DNA from: Pseudomonas sp. B6002
Lineage (GTDB): Bacteria; Pseudomonadota; Gammaproteobacteria; Pseudomonadales; Pseudomonadaceae
Assembly: GCF_013385985.1 (NCBI RefSeq)
Contig: NZ_JACAOY010000008.1
Coordinates: 53,019 to 117,018, forward strand
Length of the DNA stretch: 64,000 nt
Direction: 5' to 3'
The position numbers and the translations under genes were made by a program. The notes beneath the pieces were generated by a model that searched no databases, was not told the DNA's origin, and worked only from the letters and a program-made list of their open reading frames with translations. Shown here in pieces: positions 25,634 through 35,506 of the stretch. Position 1 is the first letter of the stretch, and each line of letters opens with the position of its first letter.

Positions 25634-25850
25634 TGTAGGAGCCGGCTTGCCGGCGATGGCGGCCTTGAATCCTGCGTTGGACTCACGGGCCTCATCGCCG
25701 GCAAGCCGGCTCCTACAGGGCGATGGTGGCCTTGAATCCTGCGTTGGACTCTCGGGCCTCATCGCCGGCAAGCCGGCTCCTACAGGGCGATGGTGGCCTT
25801 GAATCCAGTGGTGGTCTCAGGGCCTCATCGCCGGCGAGCCGGCTCCTACA
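25634..25850. repeat. Tandem REP array with three 67-bp units
   Basis: After a left REP arm at 25634, a unit starting CGATGGYGGCCTTGAATCC and ending in the right REP arm is repeated at 25654, 25721 and 25788, exactly 67 bp apart. Units 1 and 2 are nearly identical; unit 3 has diverged in the loop and in one arm base. The last unit overlaps the phoD stop codon. Confidence 0.9.
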
Positions 25851-27420
25851 GTATCGTGGCGCCGGGGCGGCCGGGTTCGACCACGAAGGATTGGAGGGTG
25901 GAGAGCGTGGCCAAGGGATCGCGCGGGTCGCTGATCGCGCGCAGGTGGGTGAGCATGCACTGTTCCTGCAACTCCACCGAGACATACCCCCGCTGGCGAC
26001 TGTCGAAAAACTTCACATGGGGGTTGAGCGGCAGAATGGCTTTGTACGGCTCATAGGGCGGGCCGTCGGAGGTCACCGATGAACCGACGAACTCGGTAGC
26101 CACCACCGGCGAGTCCAAATCATTGGCGTCTGCGTGCAGGTCCGTGACCCAGAACGAATGAATATCGCCGCCCCAGAACACCGGATTCTTCAGGTCGTGC
26201 CGCTGGATGGAGGCCAGCATTCGCTCACGATTGGCCATGTAGCCGTCCCACCCGTCCGTCCAGCGCCCCGGCTTGTGGTTGGTCAGGTCGCGCTGGGTCA
26301 ACGGTGCAACGAGCAGGTCCTGTGCGATCACGTTCCACTGCGCAGGGGACTCGGCAAAACCTCGGTCCAGCCAAGCCTCCTGCTCCCAGCCGAGCATCGT
26401 GCGGCGAGGGTCGCGCAGGTCGGTGCAGCTGTTGTCGGCGATGTGCCCCTGGTGGCTGCCATTGGCCAAAATGCACGGTTGTTCGGAGCGGTACTGGCGA
26501 CCATCCAACACGTGGAATCGCGCCAATCGGCCGTAGTCCAGGCGTCGGTAAATACGCATATCCGGGCCCTTCGGCAGGCTGCTGGCGCGCAGTGGCATAT
26601 GTTCGTAGAAGGCCTGGTAGGCGGCGGCCCGCTGCTTGAGGAATTGCGCCACCGGAGTCTTCGGGTCCTGGGACCAGCGGTTGGCGTAGTCGTTCTGTAC
26701 TTCGTGATCGTCCCACGTCGCCACACTCGGCGCAGCGGCGTGCAGGGCCTGCAGGTCCGGATCGGTTTTGTACAGGGCATAGCGGTTGCGATAGTCACTC
26801 AGGCTCACCGCATTGCCGCTGCCATGGGCGCGGAAAACTTTGCCCGAGTCGGCGGCATAGGAGCTGTCGTAGATATAGTCACCGAGGAAAAACACCAAGT
26901 CCGGCTGCTCGGCAGCCAGGTGACGGTAGGCACTGAAGTAACCGCGTTCCCAGTGCGAGCACGACACAAACCCTAACCGCGCCGACACCATCGCCTGCAT
27001 AGGCGGCGTAGTACACGCACGGCCTACCGGGCTCTGCGCGCCCAGGCCTTCGAATTGGTACCAGTACGGCCTCCCCGCCTCCAGCCCCGCCACTTCCACA
27101 TGCACCGAATGGGCAAAGCGTTCCGTCGCCGTGGCTTCGCCCTGCTTCACAATGCGCGTCATGGCCGCATCGCTGGCCACTCGCCAACGCACCGGCACCG
27201 GGCGGCGCAACCCGCCTCGCCCATCATCGGCATTGAACAACGGTGCCAGGCGCGTCCAGATCACGAAGCCATCAGGCAGTGGATCGCCGGAAGCCACGCC
27301 CAGGGTGAACGGATAGTCGACCCCGGCACTGCGTGCAAACGGGCTAAGGATCGAAAAAGCCGAGGCAACCGCCAGCCCCGTGAGAATCCGCCGACGGCCA
27401 TGGTCCACCTCGCCGTTCAT
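25846..27420 (-). CDS. phoD: PhoD-type alkaline phosphatase/phosphodiesterase (Tat-exported)
   Basis: A 524-aa PhoD-family enzyme. The N-terminal twin-arginine signal GRRRILTGLAVASAFS (residues 8-23) sends it out folded through Tat. The N-terminal Ig-like region is followed by the metallophosphatase core: GFVSCSHWERGYF, FFLGDYIYD, WDDHEVQNDY and WGGDIHSFW, which hold the Fe/Ca ligands. PhoD releases phosphate from phosphodiesters outside the cytoplasm and is Pho-regulated in many bacteria. It overlaps the GNAT gene by 4 bp (ATGA). Its stop TAG lies in a REP arm. Confidence 0.92.
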   Translation of the reverse strand: MNGEVDHGRRRILTGLAVASAFSILSPFARSAGVDYPFTLGVASGDPLPDGFVIWTRLAPLFNADDGRGGLRRPVPVRWRVASDAAMTRIVKQGEATATERFAHSVHVEVAGLEAGRPYWYQFEGLGAQSPVGRACTTPPMQAMVSARLGFVSCSHWERGYFSAYRHLAAEQPDLVFFLGDYIYDSSYAADSGKVFRAHGSGNAVSLSDYRNRYALYKTDPDLQALHAAAPSVATWDDHEVQNDYANRWSQDPKTPVAQFLKQRAAAYQAFYEHMPLRASSLPKGPDMRIYRRLDYGRLARFHVLDGRQYRSEQPCILANGSHQGHIADNSCTDLRDPRRTMLGWEQEAWLDRGFAESPAQWNVIAQDLLVAPLTQRDLTNHKPGRWTDGWDGYMANRERMLASIQRHDLKNPVFWGGDIHSFWVTDLHADANDLDSPVVATEFVGSSVTSDGPPYEPYKAILPLNPHVKFFDSRQRGYVSVELQEQCMLTHLRAISDPRDPLATLSTLQSFVVEPGRPGATIL

Positions 27421-27971
27421 GTGCGGGCCTCCCAGTCCTCACGCAACGCGGCGAAACCGAGCAAGTCTTCATACACGCCGTTCTTGAGAAACGCCCCGCG
27501 CATGCAGCCCTCATAGCGCAGGCCGATTTTTTCCATCACCCGTGCCGATTCCTTGTTGCGACCAAAGCACTGGCTGCCCACCCGATGCAGCCCGAGCTGC
27601 GTGAACCCGTAACCGGTGACCGCACTCGCCGCTTCAGCGGCATAGCCCCGGTTTCGACAGCTCGCCGCGACCCAACCCCCAAGGTGGCCATAGTGATGCC
27701 GCGCATTCAGACGCAAGCTGACGATGCCGATCAATTCGCCACTTTCCCGCAGGTGCATGCCGAGGCTGAGCAGGTCGCCTGCACGAAATTTATCGTCCAT
27801 CGCACCAATAAACTCCTGCGCCGTTTCCAGCGTGTAGGGCGACGGAATGTTCGCCGTGTTGTCGGCGATTTTCGGCCCGTTGGCGAGGGTGGAAAGGGTC
27901 TCGGCCTGGGTCATTTCCAGCGCCCGCAATAGTAGTCGCGGTGTCGCCAAATGAGGCAGTGCGGTCGGCAT
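27417..27971 (-). CDS. GNAT N-acetyltransferase (RimJ/RimL-like)
   Basis: A 184-aa acetyltransferase beginning with the family pattern LATPRLLLRALEMTQAETL and carrying the acetyl-CoA region YGHLGGWVAASCRNRGYAAEAASAVTGYGF (about 98-127). The ATG at 27971 is used; a TTG at 28001 would add ten residues and cannot be excluded. It lies upstream of phoD with a 4-bp overlap and shares a short divergent region with exbD. The substrate is unknown; the coupling to phoD may be by chance of gene order. Confidence 0.8.
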   Translation of the reverse strand: MPTALPHLATPRLLLRALEMTQAETLSTLANGPKIADNTANIPSPYTLETAQEFIGAMDDKFRAGDLLSLGMHLRESGELIGIVSLRLNARHHYGHLGGWVAASCRNRGYAAEAASAVTGYGFTQLGLHRVGSQCFGRNKESARVMEKIGLRYEGCMRGAFLKNGVYEDLLGFAALREDWEART

Positions 27972-28048: not shown

Positions 28049-28161
28049 GTAAATTGCCTGTAAGACGCGTCCTAGAGCCCTCAAAACGTCAATTAAAGTT
28101 AACCAATCGGTCATTTTTGGTTGTTAGCGTGTCGCCCCTAATTCAACGACGGGGTAGCGGA

Positions 28162-28569
28162 ATGAGAACCTGGGATGAACCCAAGAAGCGCAAGGCACAC
28201 ATCGAATTGATCCCGATGATCGACGTGATGATGTTCCTCCTGGTGTTTTTCGTACTCGTGAGCTTGAACGTGATTCCGGCCCTCGGCATGAAGACGCAAC
28301 TGCCCAGCGCGAGCAGTTCGCAGCAGCTCAAACCACAGAACAAATTCATCCTGACGTTGGGCCTGGAAGGCCAACTGCAACTCGACGGCAAGGACCTCAC
28401 AGTCGATGCCCTGGTACCGGCGTTGAAGGCCGCCGAGAAGCCCGATACCAAGTCGACGATCATCGTCAATAGTGACAAGGGCGTGGAAGTGTCGCGCCTG
28501 GTGGAAGTGATGGACACCCTGCGCCTGGGTGGCTTCACCTCCGTGTCCATTGCCACGCGTAAGTCCTGA
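28162..28569 (+). CDS. exbD: ExbD-type biopolymer transport protein
   Basis: A 135-aa one-helix protein with the conserved Asp21 in IELIPMIDVMMFLLVFF, the proton-path residue of ExbD/TolR. The periplasmic domain has LTLGLEGQLQLDGKDL and ends VSIATRKS. It works with ExbB and TonB to energise outer-membrane receptors. The ATG at 28162 matches the family start; the upstream extension to 28015 is rejected. The gene is first in the operon and ends two bases before tonB. Confidence 0.93.
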   Translation: MRTWDEPKKRKAHIELIPMIDVMMFLLVFFVLVSLNVIPALGMKTQLPSASSSQQLKPQNKFILTLGLEGQLQLDGKDLTVDALVPALKAAEKPDTKSTIIVNSDKGVEVSRLVEVMDTLRLGGFTSVSIATRKS

Positions 28570-28571
28570 TC

Positions 28572-29300
28572 ATGTACGTCCTGTTTCGTGCGCGTCAGCT
28601 GCTGGGCAGTGTCCCGGCCCTGATCGCCCTGGTGCTGATTGCACTGGGTATCCAGTCCCAGACCTTGAAGGTCGAACCCAAGTACGACGAGTCGGCGGTC
28701 GAGCTGGCGTTGGTCGAGCCCGAGCCGGAAGTGATCCCGGAACCGGTGGTGGAACAAGAGCCGCCCCCGCCAGTGATCGAGGACGAAGAGGCCGAGCCGG
28801 CCCCGCCGCCACCACCGCCCAAGCCGCAGCCAAAACCCAAGCCTGAGCCCAAGCCAAAACCTGTGCCCAAGCCCGTGGTCGCCAAGCCAACCCCAACACC
28901 GACGCCGCCTCCAGTGGCCGCCAAACCGGCCCCCGCCGCCGTGGCCCAGGCCGCGCCGACACCCGCACCGCCGGCGCCGCCGAAGGTCGACGGCCAGGCG
29001 CTGGAAGGCGGTTACCTCAAGGGGCTGCGCAACGAGTTAGACACCTACAAGCAGTACCCCACCGGCCGCCAGGCCTCCCTCGAACGCCCCAGCGGCGAAG
29101 TGGTGATCTGGCTGCTGGTGGACCGCCAGGGTCGCGTTCTGGACTCCGGCTTGCAAACCCAGGCCTCGAGCATGTTGCTCAACCGGGCCGCCACCAACAG
29201 CTTGCGTCGTATCAAGCAAGTCAAGCCGTTCCCCGAGCAAGCCTTCGGGGGGCGCAATGAGCAGCGCTTCACCGCCACCTTCAACTACAGCGTGCAATAA
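28572..29300 (+). CDS. tonB: TonB energy transducer
   Basis: A 242-aa TonB: cytoplasmic stub, one helix (about 12-28), a Pro/Lys/Glu-rich periplasm-spanning segment (about 48-140, with PKP repeats) and a C-terminal domain with the YP motif (TYKQYPTGRQ), GEVVIWLLVDRQGRV and a final FTATFNYSV. It links ExbBD to outer-membrane receptors. It is close-packed after exbD and 24 bp before the receptor gene, so the TonB here is dedicated to this receptor. Confidence 0.93.
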   Translation: MYVLFRARQLLGSVPALIALVLIALGIQSQTLKVEPKYDESAVELALVEPEPEVIPEPVVEQEPPPPVIEDEEAEPAPPPPPPKPQPKPKPEPKPKPVPKPVVAKPTPTPTPPPVAAKPAPAAVAQAAPTPAPPAPPKVDGQALEGGYLKGLRNELDTYKQYPTGRQASLERPSGEVVIWLLVDRQGRVLDSGLQTQASSMLLNRAATNSLRRIKQVKPFPEQAFGGRNEQRFTATFNYSVQ

Positions 29301-29324
29301 GCACCCGACACCAGGACGACAGTG

Positions 29325-31604
29325 ATGAGGTTCACACGGATTCATCTGGCACTCGTTGCCGCAAGCATGGGCCATGGAATGGTCATGGCCGACACCAGCG
29401 ACAGCGACGTCGGGACTATTGGGGTTCAGGGCAAGGCCACGGCAGGTGGCGGCTACATGGTGCAGGAAGAAAGCATCAAGGGCCGCTCCACCGTGACCAA
29501 GGAAGCGCTGGATAAGCAGACCGCCACCGGTAACGCGATCGACAAGCTCAAGTACACCCCGGGCCTGAACATCTCCAGCGAAGACAACACCGGCCTGTCG
29601 GGCTTCCGCTTCACCATGCGCGGGCTCAACTCCGACCAGGTGGGGATGTCGGTGGACGGCATGCCGATCAACGACTCCGGCAACTACGCGCTGTACTCCA
29701 ACCTGCTGGGCGACCCGGAAAACATCGAGCAGATCTTCGTCACCCAAGGCTCGGCAGAAGCTGACGGCCCGCACATCGGCTCCAGCGGCGGCAACATCGG
29801 CATCGTGACCATTCGCCCGACCAAGGAAACCGGCGCGTTCGTCAAACAGGTCATGGGCAGCAACGCCACCCGCAAGACCTTCGCCCGCCTCAACAGCGGC
29901 GAGATCAACGGCCTGAGCAACTGGCTGTCGGTGTCTCATACAGAAGGTGACATGTGGCGCGGCTCGGGCGCCGTGCGGGCGGACAAGGTGGAGTGGAACA
30001 GCTTCTTCGACGCCGGCAACGGCAACACCGCCAACCTGATCCTCAAGTACCACGAGCAGGACAACAACAGCTACAGCCAGCTCACCAAGGGCCAGTTCCA
30101 GCAGAACGGCCGCAAGTACGATCCGTACCCTGCCACGCCGACCGTGGGCAGCAACGGCAAGGTCAACAGCTACTACGCCCTGGCGCAGAACCCGTTCCAG
30201 ACCTTCACGGGGGTGCTCAATACCCAATTCAAACTGGCTGACAACCTGGCGTTGTCGGTGATCCCATATTACTACTGGGGCAACGGCAGCGGCGTGGGCT
30301 CGAACAGCTACGCGCTGAACCGCGGCTCCAACGCGGGCGGCGTGTTCGACTTGAGCAACCTGCCGACCGCGGCGCAGTACAACGCCGACGGTTCCTCAAC
30401 CACCGGCGTGTACTACCGCCCTTCCCGCACCCAGACCTGGCGCCCGGGCATCACCACCAAGCTGAACTGGGACCTGGAAGAACACAGCCTGCAATTCGGC
30501 TACTGGTATGAGCGTGCGCGCCAAAGCCAGACCCAACCGTTCATTGCCCTCAAGAGCAACGGCAAGCCAACCGACACCTGGCCAGACGGCAACGCCGTGG
30601 TCGATGCCAACGGCAACACCGTGCAGGGTCGCGACCGCTTCACCGTCACCCCGGCGCAAAAAGTCTGGGCCCAGGACACCTGGTACATCAACCCGGACTG
30701 GACCCTGGTGGCGGGCCTCGCCTACATGAACGTCGAGCGTGACGGCACCAACCACGGCAGCCTCACCGAGCAGGCCGAGAAGCGTAACCAGACCTACAAC
30801 AAGCTGCTGCCCAACGTCGGCCTCAAGTACCAGCTGGATGAGCGTGACCAGTTGTTCTACAGCCTGTCGCGCAACATGCGTATCCCGCAGAACTACGTGC
30901 TGTACGACAAAGGTGCCGGCTCCATCGACGCCAAGCCGGAAACCAGCTGGAACCACGAGCTGGGCTGGCGCTACACCGATGAAGACATGACCGTGGCCGC
31001 GACCTTGTTCTACATGCAGTTCAAGGATCGCCAGGTGTCGTCCAAAGACATCAACGGCGACTTCGCCGACATCAACGCCGGCTCGGTCAACAACAGCGGC
31101 CTGGAGCTGGAATGGAGCGGCCTGCTGCCCAACCACTTCAACTACTACACCTCCTACACCTACACCAAGGCCGAGCAACAAGATGACCTGACCGTCTACA
31201 ACGCCGGCAAGGCCATCCTTTTGCCCACCAGCGGCAAGCAGTTCGCCAACGTGCCGAAAAACATGCTGGCCGCCAACATCGGCTACGACGACGGGCGCTT
31301 CTACGGCACCTTCGGCGGCAAGTACACCAGCAAGCTCTACGGCGACCTGACCAACGACGAGGCGATCTCCGGGCGCACCGTTTTCAACGCCGGCGCCGGT
31401 ATCTACCTGCCGGTGGACAAGAAGGTGGTCAAGGACGCGACCCTGCGCCTGAACGTCGACAACCTGTTCGACAAGAAGTACCTGGACGGCGTGTACACCA
31501 CCAAGACCAACTCGGCCACCTACGGCGGTTTCCGCGACGGCGACCCGGCGTACATCGTGGGCCTGGAACGCACCGTGACGGTTTCCCTGGAAGCCAATTT
31601 CTAA
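29325..31604 (+). CDS. TonB-dependent outer-membrane receptor of the exbD-tonB-exbB operon
   Basis: A 759-aa outer-membrane receptor with a Sec signal (LALVAASMGHGMVMA-D), plug domain (KLKYTPGLNISSEDNTGLSGFRFTMRGLNSDQVGMSVDGMPIND, then GPHIGSSGGNIGIVTIRP) and a C-terminal β-barrel ending in a typical aromatic residue (SLEANF). Early VGTIGVQGKA resembles a TonB box region, but no clear canonical box was picked out. The substrate cannot be read from the sequence. Its place between tonB and exbB, and near phospholipase D-like and PhoD genes, suggests a phosphorus-linked ligand. Confidence 0.9.
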   Translation: MRFTRIHLALVAASMGHGMVMADTSDSDVGTIGVQGKATAGGGYMVQEESIKGRSTVTKEALDKQTATGNAIDKLKYTPGLNISSEDNTGLSGFRFTMRGLNSDQVGMSVDGMPINDSGNYALYSNLLGDPENIEQIFVTQGSAEADGPHIGSSGGNIGIVTIRPTKETGAFVKQVMGSNATRKTFARLNSGEINGLSNWLSVSHTEGDMWRGSGAVRADKVEWNSFFDAGNGNTANLILKYHEQDNNSYSQLTKGQFQQNGRKYDPYPATPTVGSNGKVNSYYALAQNPFQTFTGVLNTQFKLADNLALSVIPYYYWGNGSGVGSNSYALNRGSNAGGVFDLSNLPTAAQYNADGSSTTGVYYRPSRTQTWRPGITTKLNWDLEEHSLQFGYWYERARQSQTQPFIALKSNGKPTDTWPDGNAVVDANGNTVQGRDRFTVTPAQKVWAQDTWYINPDWTLVAGLAYMNVERDGTNHGSLTEQAEKRNQTYNKLLPNVGLKYQLDERDQLFYSLSRNMRIPQNYVLYDKGAGSIDAKPETSWNHELGWRYTDEDMTVAATLFYMQFKDRQVSSKDINGDFADINAGSVNNSGLELEWSGLLPNHFNYYTSYTYTKAEQQDDLTVYNAGKAILLPTSGKQFANVPKNMLAANIGYDDGRFYGTFGGKYTSKLYGDLTNDEAISGRTVFNAGAGIYLPVDKKVVKDATLRLNVDNLFDKKYLDGVYTTKTNSATYGGFRDGDPAYIVGLERTVTVSLEANF

Positions 31605-31621
31605 CTGCGAGGTAAGTGAAC

Positions 31622-32269
31622 ATGGACATGAATGTGCTCCACGACATCACGTTTTATGTGATGTATGCCGCGATGGCCATCGCGATCTTTATCACCATCG
31701 AGCGCGGGATCTTCTTCGCCTATGTGCGCCGCCAGGCACGCGCCTTGACCGAGGTGCTGGGCGCCAACGTGCACAGCGAACGCGACTTGCCGGAAAGCCT
31801 CACCCGTCGCGACAGCCTGCCGTTGACCATGGTGCTCCCGGTGCTGGCGCAAAAAGCCACCCACGGCTCGCGCAAAGACCTGGATGACGTGATCGAAACC
31901 CAGTACCTGACCACCCGCGCGCCGCTGGCCCGCAGCCTGTGGATCATCGAGACCATCACCACCGCCGCCCCGCTGCTGGGCTTGCTGGGGACCATCCTGG
32001 GCATCATCGACACCTTCAAGGCACTGGCCAGTGCCGGCGTGTCCGACCCGGGCCAGATCTCCGGTGGTATCGGTACGGCCTTGTTCGCCACCGGCCTGGG
32101 GATCGCCATCGCGCTGTTCTGCGTGGTGTTCCACAACTTCTTCCAGGACAGCCTGGAGCGCATCAACGACCAGCTGAAAATCCTGCTGATCCGCGCAGCC
32201 ACCGGCGCCCGTGTGCAGGGTGAAGTCCCGCACCTGGTACCGACCCCGCTGCACAGCCGCACCGCGTAA
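31622..32269 (+). CDS. exbB: ExbB/TolQ-type proton channel protein
   Basis: A 215-aa MotA/TolQ/ExbB protein. An N-terminal helix (about 8-27) is followed by a cytoplasmic region and the conserved helices TTAAPLLGLLGTILGIIDTFKAL and GGIGTALFATGLGIAIALFCVVFHNFF. It pairs with ExbD and TonB of the same operon. The ATG at 31622 follows GAGG at 31609 by nine bases; an in-frame GTG at 31616 is less likely. It is the last gene before the hairpin at 32277, 17 bp after the receptor gene. Confidence 0.92.
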   Translation: MDMNVLHDITFYVMYAAMAIAIFITIERGIFFAYVRRQARALTEVLGANVHSERDLPESLTRRDSLPLTMVLPVLAQKATHGSRKDLDDVIETQYLTTRAPLARSLWIIETITTAAPLLGLLGTILGIIDTFKALASAGVSDPGQISGGIGTALFATGLGIAIALFCVVFHNFFQDSLERINDQLKILLIRAATGARVQGEVPHLVPTPLHSRTA

Positions 32270-32276
32270 TGATTCG

Positions 32277-32306
32277 GGCGGGCGCGCAATGCGCCCGCCA
32301 TTTTTT
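32277..32306 (+). terminator. Intrinsic terminator between exbB and the PLD gene
   Basis: A perfect 9-bp GC-rich stem GGCGGGCGC / GCGCCCGCC (32277-32285 / 32291-32299) is followed by ATTTTTT. The next start codon is only 14 bp past the T-run, so the downstream gene must be reached by read-through or from a promoter inside exbB. Confidence 0.9.
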
Positions 32307-32320
32307 ACGAAGAGATCCCT

Positions 32321-33538
32321 ATGCCCATTCCCTTGAAATTGCGTATCGCAGGCCTTGCCGGTTTGCTCCTCAGTCCGCTTGCCCAGGCGGACTTTTCAAT
32401 TGCGGGTTTTGAACTGGTGCACACCGTGCCCGTGGACACCGCGCTGGGTACCGCTGATTTACGTCAACCGGGACCGGTGTGGATCGAGCTGTTCGACGGC
32501 GCAAAAACCTCCATCGACATTGGCCAGTTCTACGCGGCCGATCACTCGGGTTCGGTGATGGACAAGGTGATCGAACACCTGGAAGCCGCAGGCAAACGCG
32601 GTGTGAAGATTCGCTTTTTGCTGGAAGAAAAAGGCATCAAGCTGTCGGAAGCCTCCACCCTGGAACGCTTGCGCGCGATCCCCAACCTGACCTTTCGCGT
32701 ACTGCCTTATGGGCAACTGAGCGGCGGCATCATCCACGCCAAGTACATGGTGGTGGATGGCAAGCAGGCGTTTATCGGCAGCCAGAATTTCGACTGGCGC
32801 TCACTGGAACACATCCACGAAACCGGCCTGCGCATCAGCGACGTCAGCGTGGTCGGCCAGGTACAGGCGATCTTCAATCAGGACTGGAACGCCCAGGCTG
32901 CCCTGACAGAGCACAAGCCCGTGCCACTGCCAGCGAAAGGCGCAGAACCAGCACGCACCGGCAACTACCTGGTCGCCAGCCCGCAACGCTACAACCCTCC
33001 GGGAGTGGGTGACTCACAGCTGGAACTGCCACGCTTGCTGGGCGAGGCGAAAAAAGAGGTGCGCGTGCAATTGCTCGACTATGCACCGCTATCCTACGGA
33101 CCCGACCGGACACGTCCCTACTACGCGGTGATCGATAATGCCGTGCGTGCAGCGGCGGCGCGGGGGGTGTCGATCAAGCTGATGGTGTCCAACTGGAACA
33201 CCGACAAGCTGGAACTGCCCTACCTCAAAAGCCTGGCCGTGCTGCCCAACGTGCAGGTCAAAATCGTCACCTTGCCCGAAGCCAAGCAAGGCTTTATTCC
33301 GTATGCACGGGTGATCCACAGCAAGACGATGGAGATCGACGGGCAAGTGGCGTGGGTGGGTACCAGCAACTGGTTGGGCGGATATCTGGATAATTCACGC
33401 AACCTCGAAGTGGTGATGCGTAGCGAGGCGATGGCCAAGCGTATCGGCGAATTGCATGAGCAATTGTGGGATGGGCCCTACGCCAGCGCCTTGAACCTGA
33501 CCGAAGACTACCCCGAGCCCCACCCCGGCCAGCCTTGA
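32321..33538 (+). CDS. Exported phospholipase D-like (HKD) protein
   Basis: A 405-aa protein with a Sec signal (LAGLLLSPLAQA-D, cleaved near residue 23) and two complete HKD motifs: HAKYMVVD (His139, Lys141, Asp146) followed by GSQNF, and HSKTMEID (His333, Lys335, Asp340) followed by GTSNW. Two HKDs per chain and the periplasmic address fit a phospholipase D or other phosphodiesterase, similar in plan to the PLD3/4-K4 type. It lies downstream of the tonB operon across a terminator, and 5 kb from phoD. Substrate unproven. Confidence 0.88.
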   Translation: MPIPLKLRIAGLAGLLLSPLAQADFSIAGFELVHTVPVDTALGTADLRQPGPVWIELFDGAKTSIDIGQFYAADHSGSVMDKVIEHLEAAGKRGVKIRFLLEEKGIKLSEASTLERLRAIPNLTFRVLPYGQLSGGIIHAKYMVVDGKQAFIGSQNFDWRSLEHIHETGLRISDVSVVGQVQAIFNQDWNAQAALTEHKPVPLPAKGAEPARTGNYLVASPQRYNPPGVGDSQLELPRLLGEAKKEVRVQLLDYAPLSYGPDRTRPYYAVIDNAVRAAAARGVSIKLMVSNWNTDKLELPYLKSLAVLPNVQVKIVTLPEAKQGFIPYARVIHSKTMEIDGQVAWVGTSNWLGGYLDNSRNLEVVMRSEAMAKRIGELHEQLWDGPYASALNLTEDYPEPHPGQP

Positions 33539-33766: not shown

Positions 33767-35506
33767 ATGCACTTTCCACTCAAGAAACTGGTGGCGGCTA
33801 CCCTGCTCGCGGCCAGCCTGTCGACCCTGTCCAACGCGGCCTTTGCCAACATTACCCCAGAGCAAAGCGCGCAGATTCTGCAGCAGTTCAACGAAACATC
33901 GGTCAGCGATTTCCGTGGTTTCCTCGGCGCCCTGGCCAAGGGCGACTTGGGAAAAACCAGCGACGTGGGCCCGGCAATCAATGGGTTCCTTGGCAACCAG
34001 ACGCTGAACACCGACCAGCAGAACGAAATCAACCGCCTGCTGGGCATCTACACGCGGGTGAAGTACGGCAAGGCCGCCACCGAAACCCTGCGCGAGCTGG
34101 TGGAAATCCCGACGTTCAACATTGAAGGCGTGCCGCAGTACAAAAACCCGGAATTCCTCAAGATCGCCGCCAAGATCCAGGAACTGGCAAAGGCCTTCAA
34201 CCTGAACTTCCGCAACATCGACAACCGCGTGTATGAAATTTCCCTGGAAGGCAGCGGCGATGAAGTGGTGGGCATCCACGCCCACGCCGACGTGGTACCG
34301 GTGACGCCGGAAAACTGGGTGCTCAAAGACGGCACCAAGCTCGACCCGTTCAAGGTCACGCTGATCGGCGACCGCATGTATGGCCGTGGCACCGAGGATG
34401 ACAAGAACGGCATCGTGGTGGCGATGTACGCCATGAAGGTGATCAAGGAAGAAAAGCTGCCGCTGGCGCGCACGTTCAAACTGCTGGTGGACACCACCGA
34501 AGAAACCAACGGCGACGCGATCCCCTACTACTTCGAACACAACCCGACGCCGCAGTACAACCTGGCGCTGGACGGCGGCTACCCGGTGGTCATCGCCGAA
34601 AAAGGCTACGGCACGGTCATGGCCACCTTCCCGGTGCGCAAAGGAGAAGGCAAAGGCGCAGAAATCATTTCGATGACCGGCGGCATGGCCACCAACCAGA
34701 TTCCCTCGGCGTCGGTGGCGACCCTGCTCAGCGACAAGCCGGCCGAGTTGGCTGCCAGCCTGCAAAAAGCCGGCACCGAGTATGCCAAGCGCAATGGCGC
34801 TAACTTCCAGGTCGACGCCAAAGTGGTCGGCAAAGAGGTCAAGCTGACAGTCACGGGTGTCTCGGCGCACTCCTCGGAACCGGAAGCCGGTATCAACCCC
34901 GTCGCCCGGATGCTGGGCCTGATCCACAGCCTCGAGGGCAAGGTGGCGCTCAAGCACAACCACATCACCGATGCGGCGCGCTATGCCGCCGACAACTGGG
35001 GCCTGGACTACCTGGGTAATAAACTGGGGGTGGGTTTCTCCGATGCCTTCATGGGGCCGCTGACCACTTCGCTGACGTTTGTCGGCCAGGATGACAAAGC
35101 CTTCAAGTTGGCGGTCAACCTGCGTGTGCCTAAAGGCAAATCGCCGGAAAAACTCAAGGCCGAGATTGCCGACAAACTCAGTGCCTGGGACAAGAAAACA
35201 AAGGTGGCAGTGGGCTTCACTTACTCCGTTGCCGAACCGATGTACCGCAACCCGGAAGGCGAGTGGGTGAAGGCTTTGCTGGCAGTGGCCAGCGAGAACC
35301 TGGGCATGAAGCACGAGTTTGGCACCTCGGCCGGCGCGACCTCCGTGCATGAGCTGCCCAACGGCGTGCAATTCGGCCTGGCACGGCCGGAAGTAAAGTA
35401 CACCGGGCACACCGACAGCGAGTTCAAGACCGTCGACCAGTTCCTGCTGGACCTGCAGATTGTCACCGAGATGATGGGGCGTGTCGGGCAGTTGCCGAAG
35501 CTCTGA
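33767..35506 (+). CDS. Exported M20-family dipeptidase
   Basis: A 579-aa metallopeptidase with a Sec signal (LVAATLLAASLSTLSNAAFA-N, about residue 27). M20 zinc ligands are visible: HAHADVVP (His171/His173/Asp), GRGTEDDKNG, and DTTEETNGD with the catalytic Glu pair. The lid-domain DISH-like segment VTGVSAHSSEPEAGINPVA is present. Relatives are PepV/carnosinase-like dipeptidases; here it acts in the periplasm. I chose ATG 33767 because the ATG at 33755 abuts the AGGA ribosome site. Monocistronic, ending at a terminator. Confidence 0.88.
   Translation: MHFPLKKLVAATLLAASLSTLSNAAFANITPEQSAQILQQFNETSVSDFRGFLGALAKGDLGKTSDVGPAINGFLGNQTLNTDQQNEINRLLGIYTRVKYGKAATETLRELVEIPTFNIEGVPQYKNPEFLKIAAKIQELAKAFNLNFRNIDNRVYEISLEGSGDEVVGIHAHADVVPVTPENWVLKDGTKLDPFKVTLIGDRMYGRGTEDDKNGIVVAMYAMKVIKEEKLPLARTFKLLVDTTEETNGDAIPYYFEHNPTPQYNLALDGGYPVVIAEKGYGTVMATFPVRKGEGKGAEIISMTGGMATNQIPSASVATLLSDKPAELAASLQKAGTEYAKRNGANFQVDAKVVGKEVKLTVTGVSAHSSEPEAGINPVARMLGLIHSLEGKVALKHNHITDAARYAADNWGLDYLGNKLGVGFSDAFMGPLTTSLTFVGQDDKAFKLAVNLRVPKGKSPEKLKAEIADKLSAWDKKTKVAVGFTYSVAEPMYRNPEGEWVKALLAVASENLGMKHEFGTSAGATSVHELPNGVQFGLARPEVKYTGHTDSEFKTVDQFLLDLQIVTEMMGRVGQLPKL

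Follow-up and report, generated by a model that had tools for sequence, protein, structure and literature searches.

A conserved Pseudomonas cassette joining a TonB motor and receptor to exported phosphodiesterases, a candidate nucleic-acid scavenging system

The 64,000-nucleotide (nt) stretch of Pseudomonas sp. B6002 DNA analysed here (hereafter the window) carries a cassette in which an exbD-tonB-receptor-exbB operon is followed by a gene of the phospholipase D (PLD) family and lies divergent from a gene of the PhoD family. These genes form a conserved unit, and related operons with the same motor and receptor carry a 5'-nucleotidase gene in place of the PLD gene. The most likely reading, with a probability of about 0.65, is that the cassette is a nucleic-acid scavenging system. 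A preliminary description, made from the sequence alone, had held that the receptor substrate was not visible. Relatives make it inferable, because their 5'-nucleotidase, S1/P1 nuclease and nucleoside transport and catabolism genes point to nucleic acids; what each enzyme acts on, what the receptor carries and in which order the steps run are all inferred.

Gene content of the cassette

The features of the cassette are as follows (window coordinates):
25846..27420, minus strand: PhoD-family phosphatase/phosphodiesterase (PF09423, 370.8 bits; PF16655, PhoD_N, 104 bits), with an RR (Tat-like) signal by eye
27417..27971, minus strand: GNAT N-acetyltransferase (PF13302, 84.7 bits), which leads the divergent GNAT-phoD unit
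28107..28127, plus strand: conserved block 5' of exbD, TCGGTCATTTTYNNTTGYTAG, a probable promoter or operator (from an alignment of 21 orthologous gaps)
28162..28569, plus strand: ExbD (PF02472, 111 bits; cut-off 25.4)
28572..29300, plus strand: TonB, with one N-terminal hydrophobic segment, a Pro-rich linker and a TonB_C-like end (PF03544, 23.9 bits; cut-off 24.6)
29322..31604, plus strand: TonB-dependent receptor (barrel PF00593, 146.8 bits; plug PF07715, 56.2 bits; both above cut-off)
31622..32269, plus strand: ExbB (PF01618, 92.7 bits; cut-off 22.9)
32277..32306, plus strand: terminator- or attenuator-like GC hairpin plus T6 between exbB and the PLD gene (-22.1 kcal/mol in a 59-nt stretch)
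32321..33538, plus strand: two-HKD phosphodiesterase of the PLD3/PLD4-like branch (H139/K141/D146 and H333/K335/D340), with a signal-peptide-like N-terminus by eye

The complete Ton motor of the preliminary description is borne out: ExbD, TonB, the receptor and ExbB are intact and in this order, with the receptor between tonB and exbB and intergenic spacings of 2, 21 and 17 nt. Because the TonB_C score lies slightly below the Pfam cut-off, the TonB call depends on architecture and position, and TonB holds the identical position in PLD-type relatives. The receptor gene starts with GTG (alternative ATG at 29325), and no match to an STN domain was found in the window receptor. An exported two-HKD PLD downstream had also been described correctly: both HKD motifs are present, and all six of their residues are invariant in 19/19 aligned PLDs. 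The exported state of both PLD and PhoD is predicted from their N-termini by eye. PhoD, reported as divergent from exbD, indeed lies on the minus strand behind an RR signal-like N-terminus, but is not a direct neighbour, since the GNAT gene intervenes; the GNAT and phoD reading frames, both on the minus strand, overlap by 4 nt. The closest solved structure to PhoD is alkaline phosphatase D (2yeq, E 7e-124). A second PhoD gene in the same genome (6.68 Mb, 51 contigs) adjoins PTS-type genes, as judged by eye from translations.

Conservation of the cassette

We compared a genus sample of 150 genomes and a family sample of 398 genomes (receptor E ≤ 1e-150). Operon members took their names from tblastn matches to proteins of the window or to Pfam-checked ones, and the Pfam scan covers the loci so described; distant receptor rows L058–L061 (28–36%) were left out of the counts, and 13 receptor copies that lack a motor were counted apart as a control. 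In the genus sample, a receptor match of at least 79% and a PhoD match of at least 70% share the same 21/150 genomes, and PLD is present in those 21 and in genome G044. PLD and PhoD adjoin the motor in all 20 other loci of this set and GNAT does so in 19, while neighbouring LysR, AlaX and M20 genes are lost in its more distant members. The M20 dipeptidase gene (window 33767–35506; NF004809, 820.6 bits), which lies 3' of PLD in many near relatives and not in distant ones, is therefore probably outside the unit.

The family sample yielded 44 receptor rows from 37 genomes (25 PLD-type, 10 5'-nucleotidase-type and 9 without a motor). Six PLD-type genomes are common to both samples, which leaves 40 distinct PLD-type cassettes; PLD lies 3' of exbB in 40/40, PhoD is present in 38/40 and GNAT in 33/40. 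The preliminary description had named the absence of PLD and PhoD beside the operon in most relatives as the result that would speak against it; these counts show the opposite, and the conserved linkage supports its picture of a self-contained Ton system linked to exported phosphodiesterases. We also collected 46 named Pseudomonas PLD loci, many from the same genomes as the samples. Among the 43 that extend far enough upstream, PhoD, ExbD, TonB and ExbB are present in all, a receptor match in 42 (not L105) and GNAT in 41. The nearest named relative of the window is Pseudomonas sp. P7548 (L103), with 97–100% identity from PhoD through PLD. Class-wide, a search of 321 genomes found no further receptor at E ≤ 1e-60; at E ≤ 1e-40 it returned a single distant PLD (40%), whose 3-kb locus gives no gene context.

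Several loci depart from this pattern. L105:7464-8270 of P. spelaei has no receptor match between tonB and exbB, owing to a deletion or an assembly fault, and keeps PhoD, ExbD, TonB, ExbB and PLD. The receptor gene of L039 (G119) contains one internal TAA. The PLD of G044 (L046:7028-8365) lies next to large, unrelated open reading frames (ORFs), and the stretch fetched around it has no Ton gene. A second PhoD type (∼51%) adjoins a further large ORF that looks receptor-like by eye in L064:6665-10522 and L066:6847-10716, and in L064 also lies beside type II secretion-like genes.

Sister operons with a 5'-nucleotidase

A second operon type in the Pseudomonadaceae has the same motor-receptor order as the window cassette, but differs in that a 5'-nucleotidase replaces PLD, which is absent. 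The two samples together contain 16 such sister operons (L048, L053–L057, L151, L152 and L155–L162; the L055 contig ends before exbD), whose receptors are 51–66% identical to that of the window. A 5'-nucleotidase match lies beside all 16 (14 directly 3' of exbB, two divergent from exbD), and the Pfam domain was confirmed in all seven scanned (L048, L053, L054, L056, L151, L155 and L157); by comparison, 13/13 motorless control copies are without such a 5'-nucleotidase. An AphA-type acid phosphatase occupies PhoD's place, divergent from exbD, in 9/16 sisters (Pfam-confirmed in the six scanned), and NupC and DeoA matches likewise occur in 9/16. L056 contains cytidine deaminase, NupC, DeoC and DeoA, all above their NCBIfam cut-offs, L156 additionally an S1/P1 nuclease, and L054 a xanthine-permease-type gene.

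The two operon types are bridged by L045, which has diverged furthest among the PLD-type members of the genus sample: here PhoD is followed by exbD-tonB-receptor-exbB-PLD-5'-nucleotidase. A reverse test in the genus sample found ten 5'-nucleotidases of this kind (E ≤ 1e-60) in 9/150 genomes: six after exbB, one after PLD (L045), one after an exbB remnant (L196) and two elsewhere, one of which adjoins TctA (Pfam). In L196 (6925-8949) the 5'-nucleotidase lies 3' of a short exbB remnant (residues 129–215), apparently in a decayed operon. A FecR gene lies directly 5' of exbD in L048, L053 and L155 (Pfam: L053 and L155); in L053 it is preceded by an ECF sigma factor gene, and the gene after the 5'-nucleotidase encodes a receptor with an STN domain. 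Judging from these genes, cell-surface signalling may control this FecR-preceded operon type.

Relatives of the PLD enzyme

Both fold and sequence place the window PLD closer to PLD3 and PLD4 than to phospholipases D; at 23–26% identity, these two are the nearest among enzymes of known substrate. The parts of the published work covered here describe them as 5' exonucleases on single-stranded DNA that digest single-stranded RNA too (PMC7857491, PMC8497607), which fits a trimming role for PLD ahead of PhoD. PLD3 and PLD4 are eukaryotic, lysosomal 5'–3' exonucleases, whereas the activity of the window enzyme is predicted; it is likely an exonuclease of the same kind. SpPLD of Serratia plymuthica AS9 (PDB 7E0M) is 61% identical over 370 aligned residues and shares the two HKD and the GS/GT motifs. 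It is known as a structure; the covered parts of its paper contain no substrate assay or gene context, describe its loops as nuclease-like and ill-suited to acyl chains, and raise nucleic-acid cleavage as a question (PMC8004604).

Seven Oxalobacteraceae PLD orthologues, found by name, are 63–67% identical to the window PLD. Six of them have a 5'-nucleotidase match immediately upstream and an S1/P1 nuclease match downstream (tblastn), and L118 has neither. The Pfam-checked order in Duganella margarita (L114) is amidohydrolase, adenosine deaminase, TonB-dependent receptor, 5'-nucleotidase, PLD and S1/P1 nuclease; the amidohydrolase is guanine deaminase-like by eye, and a Bmp/PnrA ABC transporter is encoded nearby. 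The Duganella and Massilia loci (L114–L117, L119 and L120) thus resemble the window in their orthologous PLD, exported-type nucleotide enzymes and nearby TonB-type receptor. They differ in having no ExbB, ExbD or TonB match in the fetched stretches and in their receptors, which are 33% identical (L114 and L115) or of OMP_b-brl_4 type (L117, Pfam). As the L114 receptor is this distant and falls outside the main group of the receptor tree (see below), the Oxalobacteraceae evidence bears on PLD more than on the receptor.

Receptor relationships

In a tree of 22 receptors, one 15-row group unites the PLD-type with the 5'-nucleotidase-type rows and takes in two motorless copies as well as two long-branched receptors linked to a GMC-oxidoreductase. 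When the tree was rebuilt without three long rows, this group received support of 100/99, with the GMC pair nested inside. A tree in which the other 13 rows are forced into one group is worse by 12.3 log units (p-AU 0.098), so that a strict clade of PLD-type and 5'-nucleotidase-type receptors is neither demonstrated nor rejected. The predicted receptor structure has a mean pLDDT of 39.6, which makes it unusable for pocket comparison. The motorless copies (∼56–60%; L047, L049–L052, L153, L154, L163, L164 and L182–L185) sit beside FecR-type genes. Since 11 of the 13 genomes with such a copy also own a PLD-type cassette, these receptors may use the cassette's motor.

Proposed function and alternatives

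Under the nucleic-acid reading, we propose that (i) the exported PLD would act as an exonuclease that trims DNA or RNA fragments; (ii) PhoD would dephosphorylate the products; (iii) the receptor, powered by its own ExbB-ExbD-TonB motor, would move the resulting nucleotide, nucleoside or short oligonucleotide across the outer membrane; and (iv) phosphate, base and sugar could all be used as nutrients. By gene association, i.e. the 5'-nucleotidase beside 16/16 sister motor operons, we infer that the receptor ligand is a nucleotide, nucleoside or oligonucleotide; with a periplasmic PLD, oligonucleotides would have to pass through the receptor. The exported hydrolases would be interchangeable around one receptor-motor block: PLD with PhoD in the window, 5'-nucleotidase with AphA in the sisters, and PLD with 5'-nucleotidase in L045.

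Several observations weigh against this interpretation. The trees neither establish nor reject a strict receptor clade, and the substrate of receptors can change at such divergence. PAP2 genes lie 3' of PLD in L149 and L150, as a lipid pathway would show. In the scan of neighbours for metal and heme genes, which covered some loci, L157 and L160 are those with such genes: a FecCD permease, a periplasmic binding protein and a ChaN-type heme-uptake protein upstream in L157:11565-15183, and a periplasmic binding protein of the same type upstream in L160:14104-15003. The heme-type neighbours and the unproven receptor clade lower the weight of the nucleic-acid reading and raise that of a receptor for iron, heme or another metal complex that has its own motor, with PLD and PhoD as mere neighbours in no common pathway.

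Dedicated TonB-ExbBD systems for heme and siderophores have the receptor encoded with its own motor, as in the window; they carry metal-uptake genes, whereas the window cassette has exported phosphodiesterases instead. The highest-scoring NCBIfam family of the receptor is a siderophore receptor model (TIGR01783), and its solved relatives include FecA, FhuA and FoxA. However, that model scores 141 bits against a cut-off of 223.5, every NCBIfam receptor model listed lies below its cut-off, the best profile match is the PQQ receptor YncD, and PLD and PhoD are kept with the receptor though the outer flanks vary. We therefore regard a metal-complex receptor as unlikely.

Phospholipid scavenging is also improbable. 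PLD would here release phosphatidic acid and head groups, PhoD would free phosphate and a product derived from the lipid would enter through the receptor; PhoB might control the system. This is suggested by the family name and the title of 7e0m, by the PAP2 genes mentioned above, by F13, which falls in the same fold group as the window PLD, and by the weak recurring Pho-like site described below. The PAP2 family includes acid phosphatases as well, and the PLD itself is nearer to PLD3 and PLD4. Of the phosphorus scavenging originally proposed, phosphorus may stand as one of the nutrients gained; a lipid as the main substrate is unlikely. Scavenging of another phosphodiester (teichoic acid, glycerophosphodiesters, or nucleotide sugars and NAD) with the same enzymes has little to recommend it: alkaline phosphatase D is the nearest solved kin of PhoD, and UshA-, NadN- and cyclic-nucleotidase-type models match the four scanned sister 5'-nucleotidases, all below cut-off, but NupC and DeoA in 9/16 sisters, together with cytidine deaminase and DeoC, fit nucleosides, including deoxynucleosides.

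Regulation and transcription

The 190-nt gap between the GNAT and exbD genes was aligned in 21 loci. Its partial Pho box, noted in the preliminary description, amounts to a weak match: the window's best sites in this gap carry 5/14 mismatches, a score matched by 59.5% of 200 shuffles, and a consensus scan of the window gap found no site with ≤3 mismatches. For comparison, a pstS-like gene (PF12849) in the same genome is preceded by a site with two mismatches and followed by one with a single mismatch. PhoB control of the cassette is thus unsupported, the window site being at chance level. A minus-strand Pho-like site directed toward GNAT-phoD recurs at a fixed place, with four mismatches in 8/21 gaps, five in 6/21 (window included) and six to seven in 7/21; given this weak recurrence, PhoB may yet act here. 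The strongest conserved element of the gap is the block at 28107–28127, which lies 35–55 nt 5' of exbD; its own genome contains one mismatch-free copy (this locus) and three others at three mismatches, versus four control hits.

PLD lies directly 3' of exbB, at a distance of 51 nt, but the terminator-like hairpin stands between them, so that PLD is probably expressed through partial read-through, as predicted from the hairpin. A lenient hairpin-plus-T test is passed by the exbB-PLD gap in 32/39 PLD-type relatives, some of them weakly, and by the exbB-5'-nucleotidase gap in 2/14.

Implications

The titles and abstract openings searched, in a literature coverage that mostly excludes subscription journals, contain no description of this cassette, nor of any Pseudomonas TonB receptor linked to these nucleoside genes. 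A broader view is tentative and somewhat doubtful: TonB-driven import of oligonucleotides or nucleotides whose size or charge bars them from porins, followed by periplasmic digestion by PLD and PhoD or by 5'-nucleotidase and AphA, might do for nucleic acids what the Sus-type systems do for polysaccharides, and PLD3/PLD4-like enzymes might constitute a bacterial nutrient-scavenging family. As a candidate for the active uptake of nucleic-acid products across the outer membrane, the cassette can be put to the test, and it offers a genetic setting for studying bacterial relatives of PLD3 and PLD4. Some bacterial 'phospholipase D' annotations, among them that of a protein of solved structure, may in fact denote DNA- or RNA-cutting nucleases.
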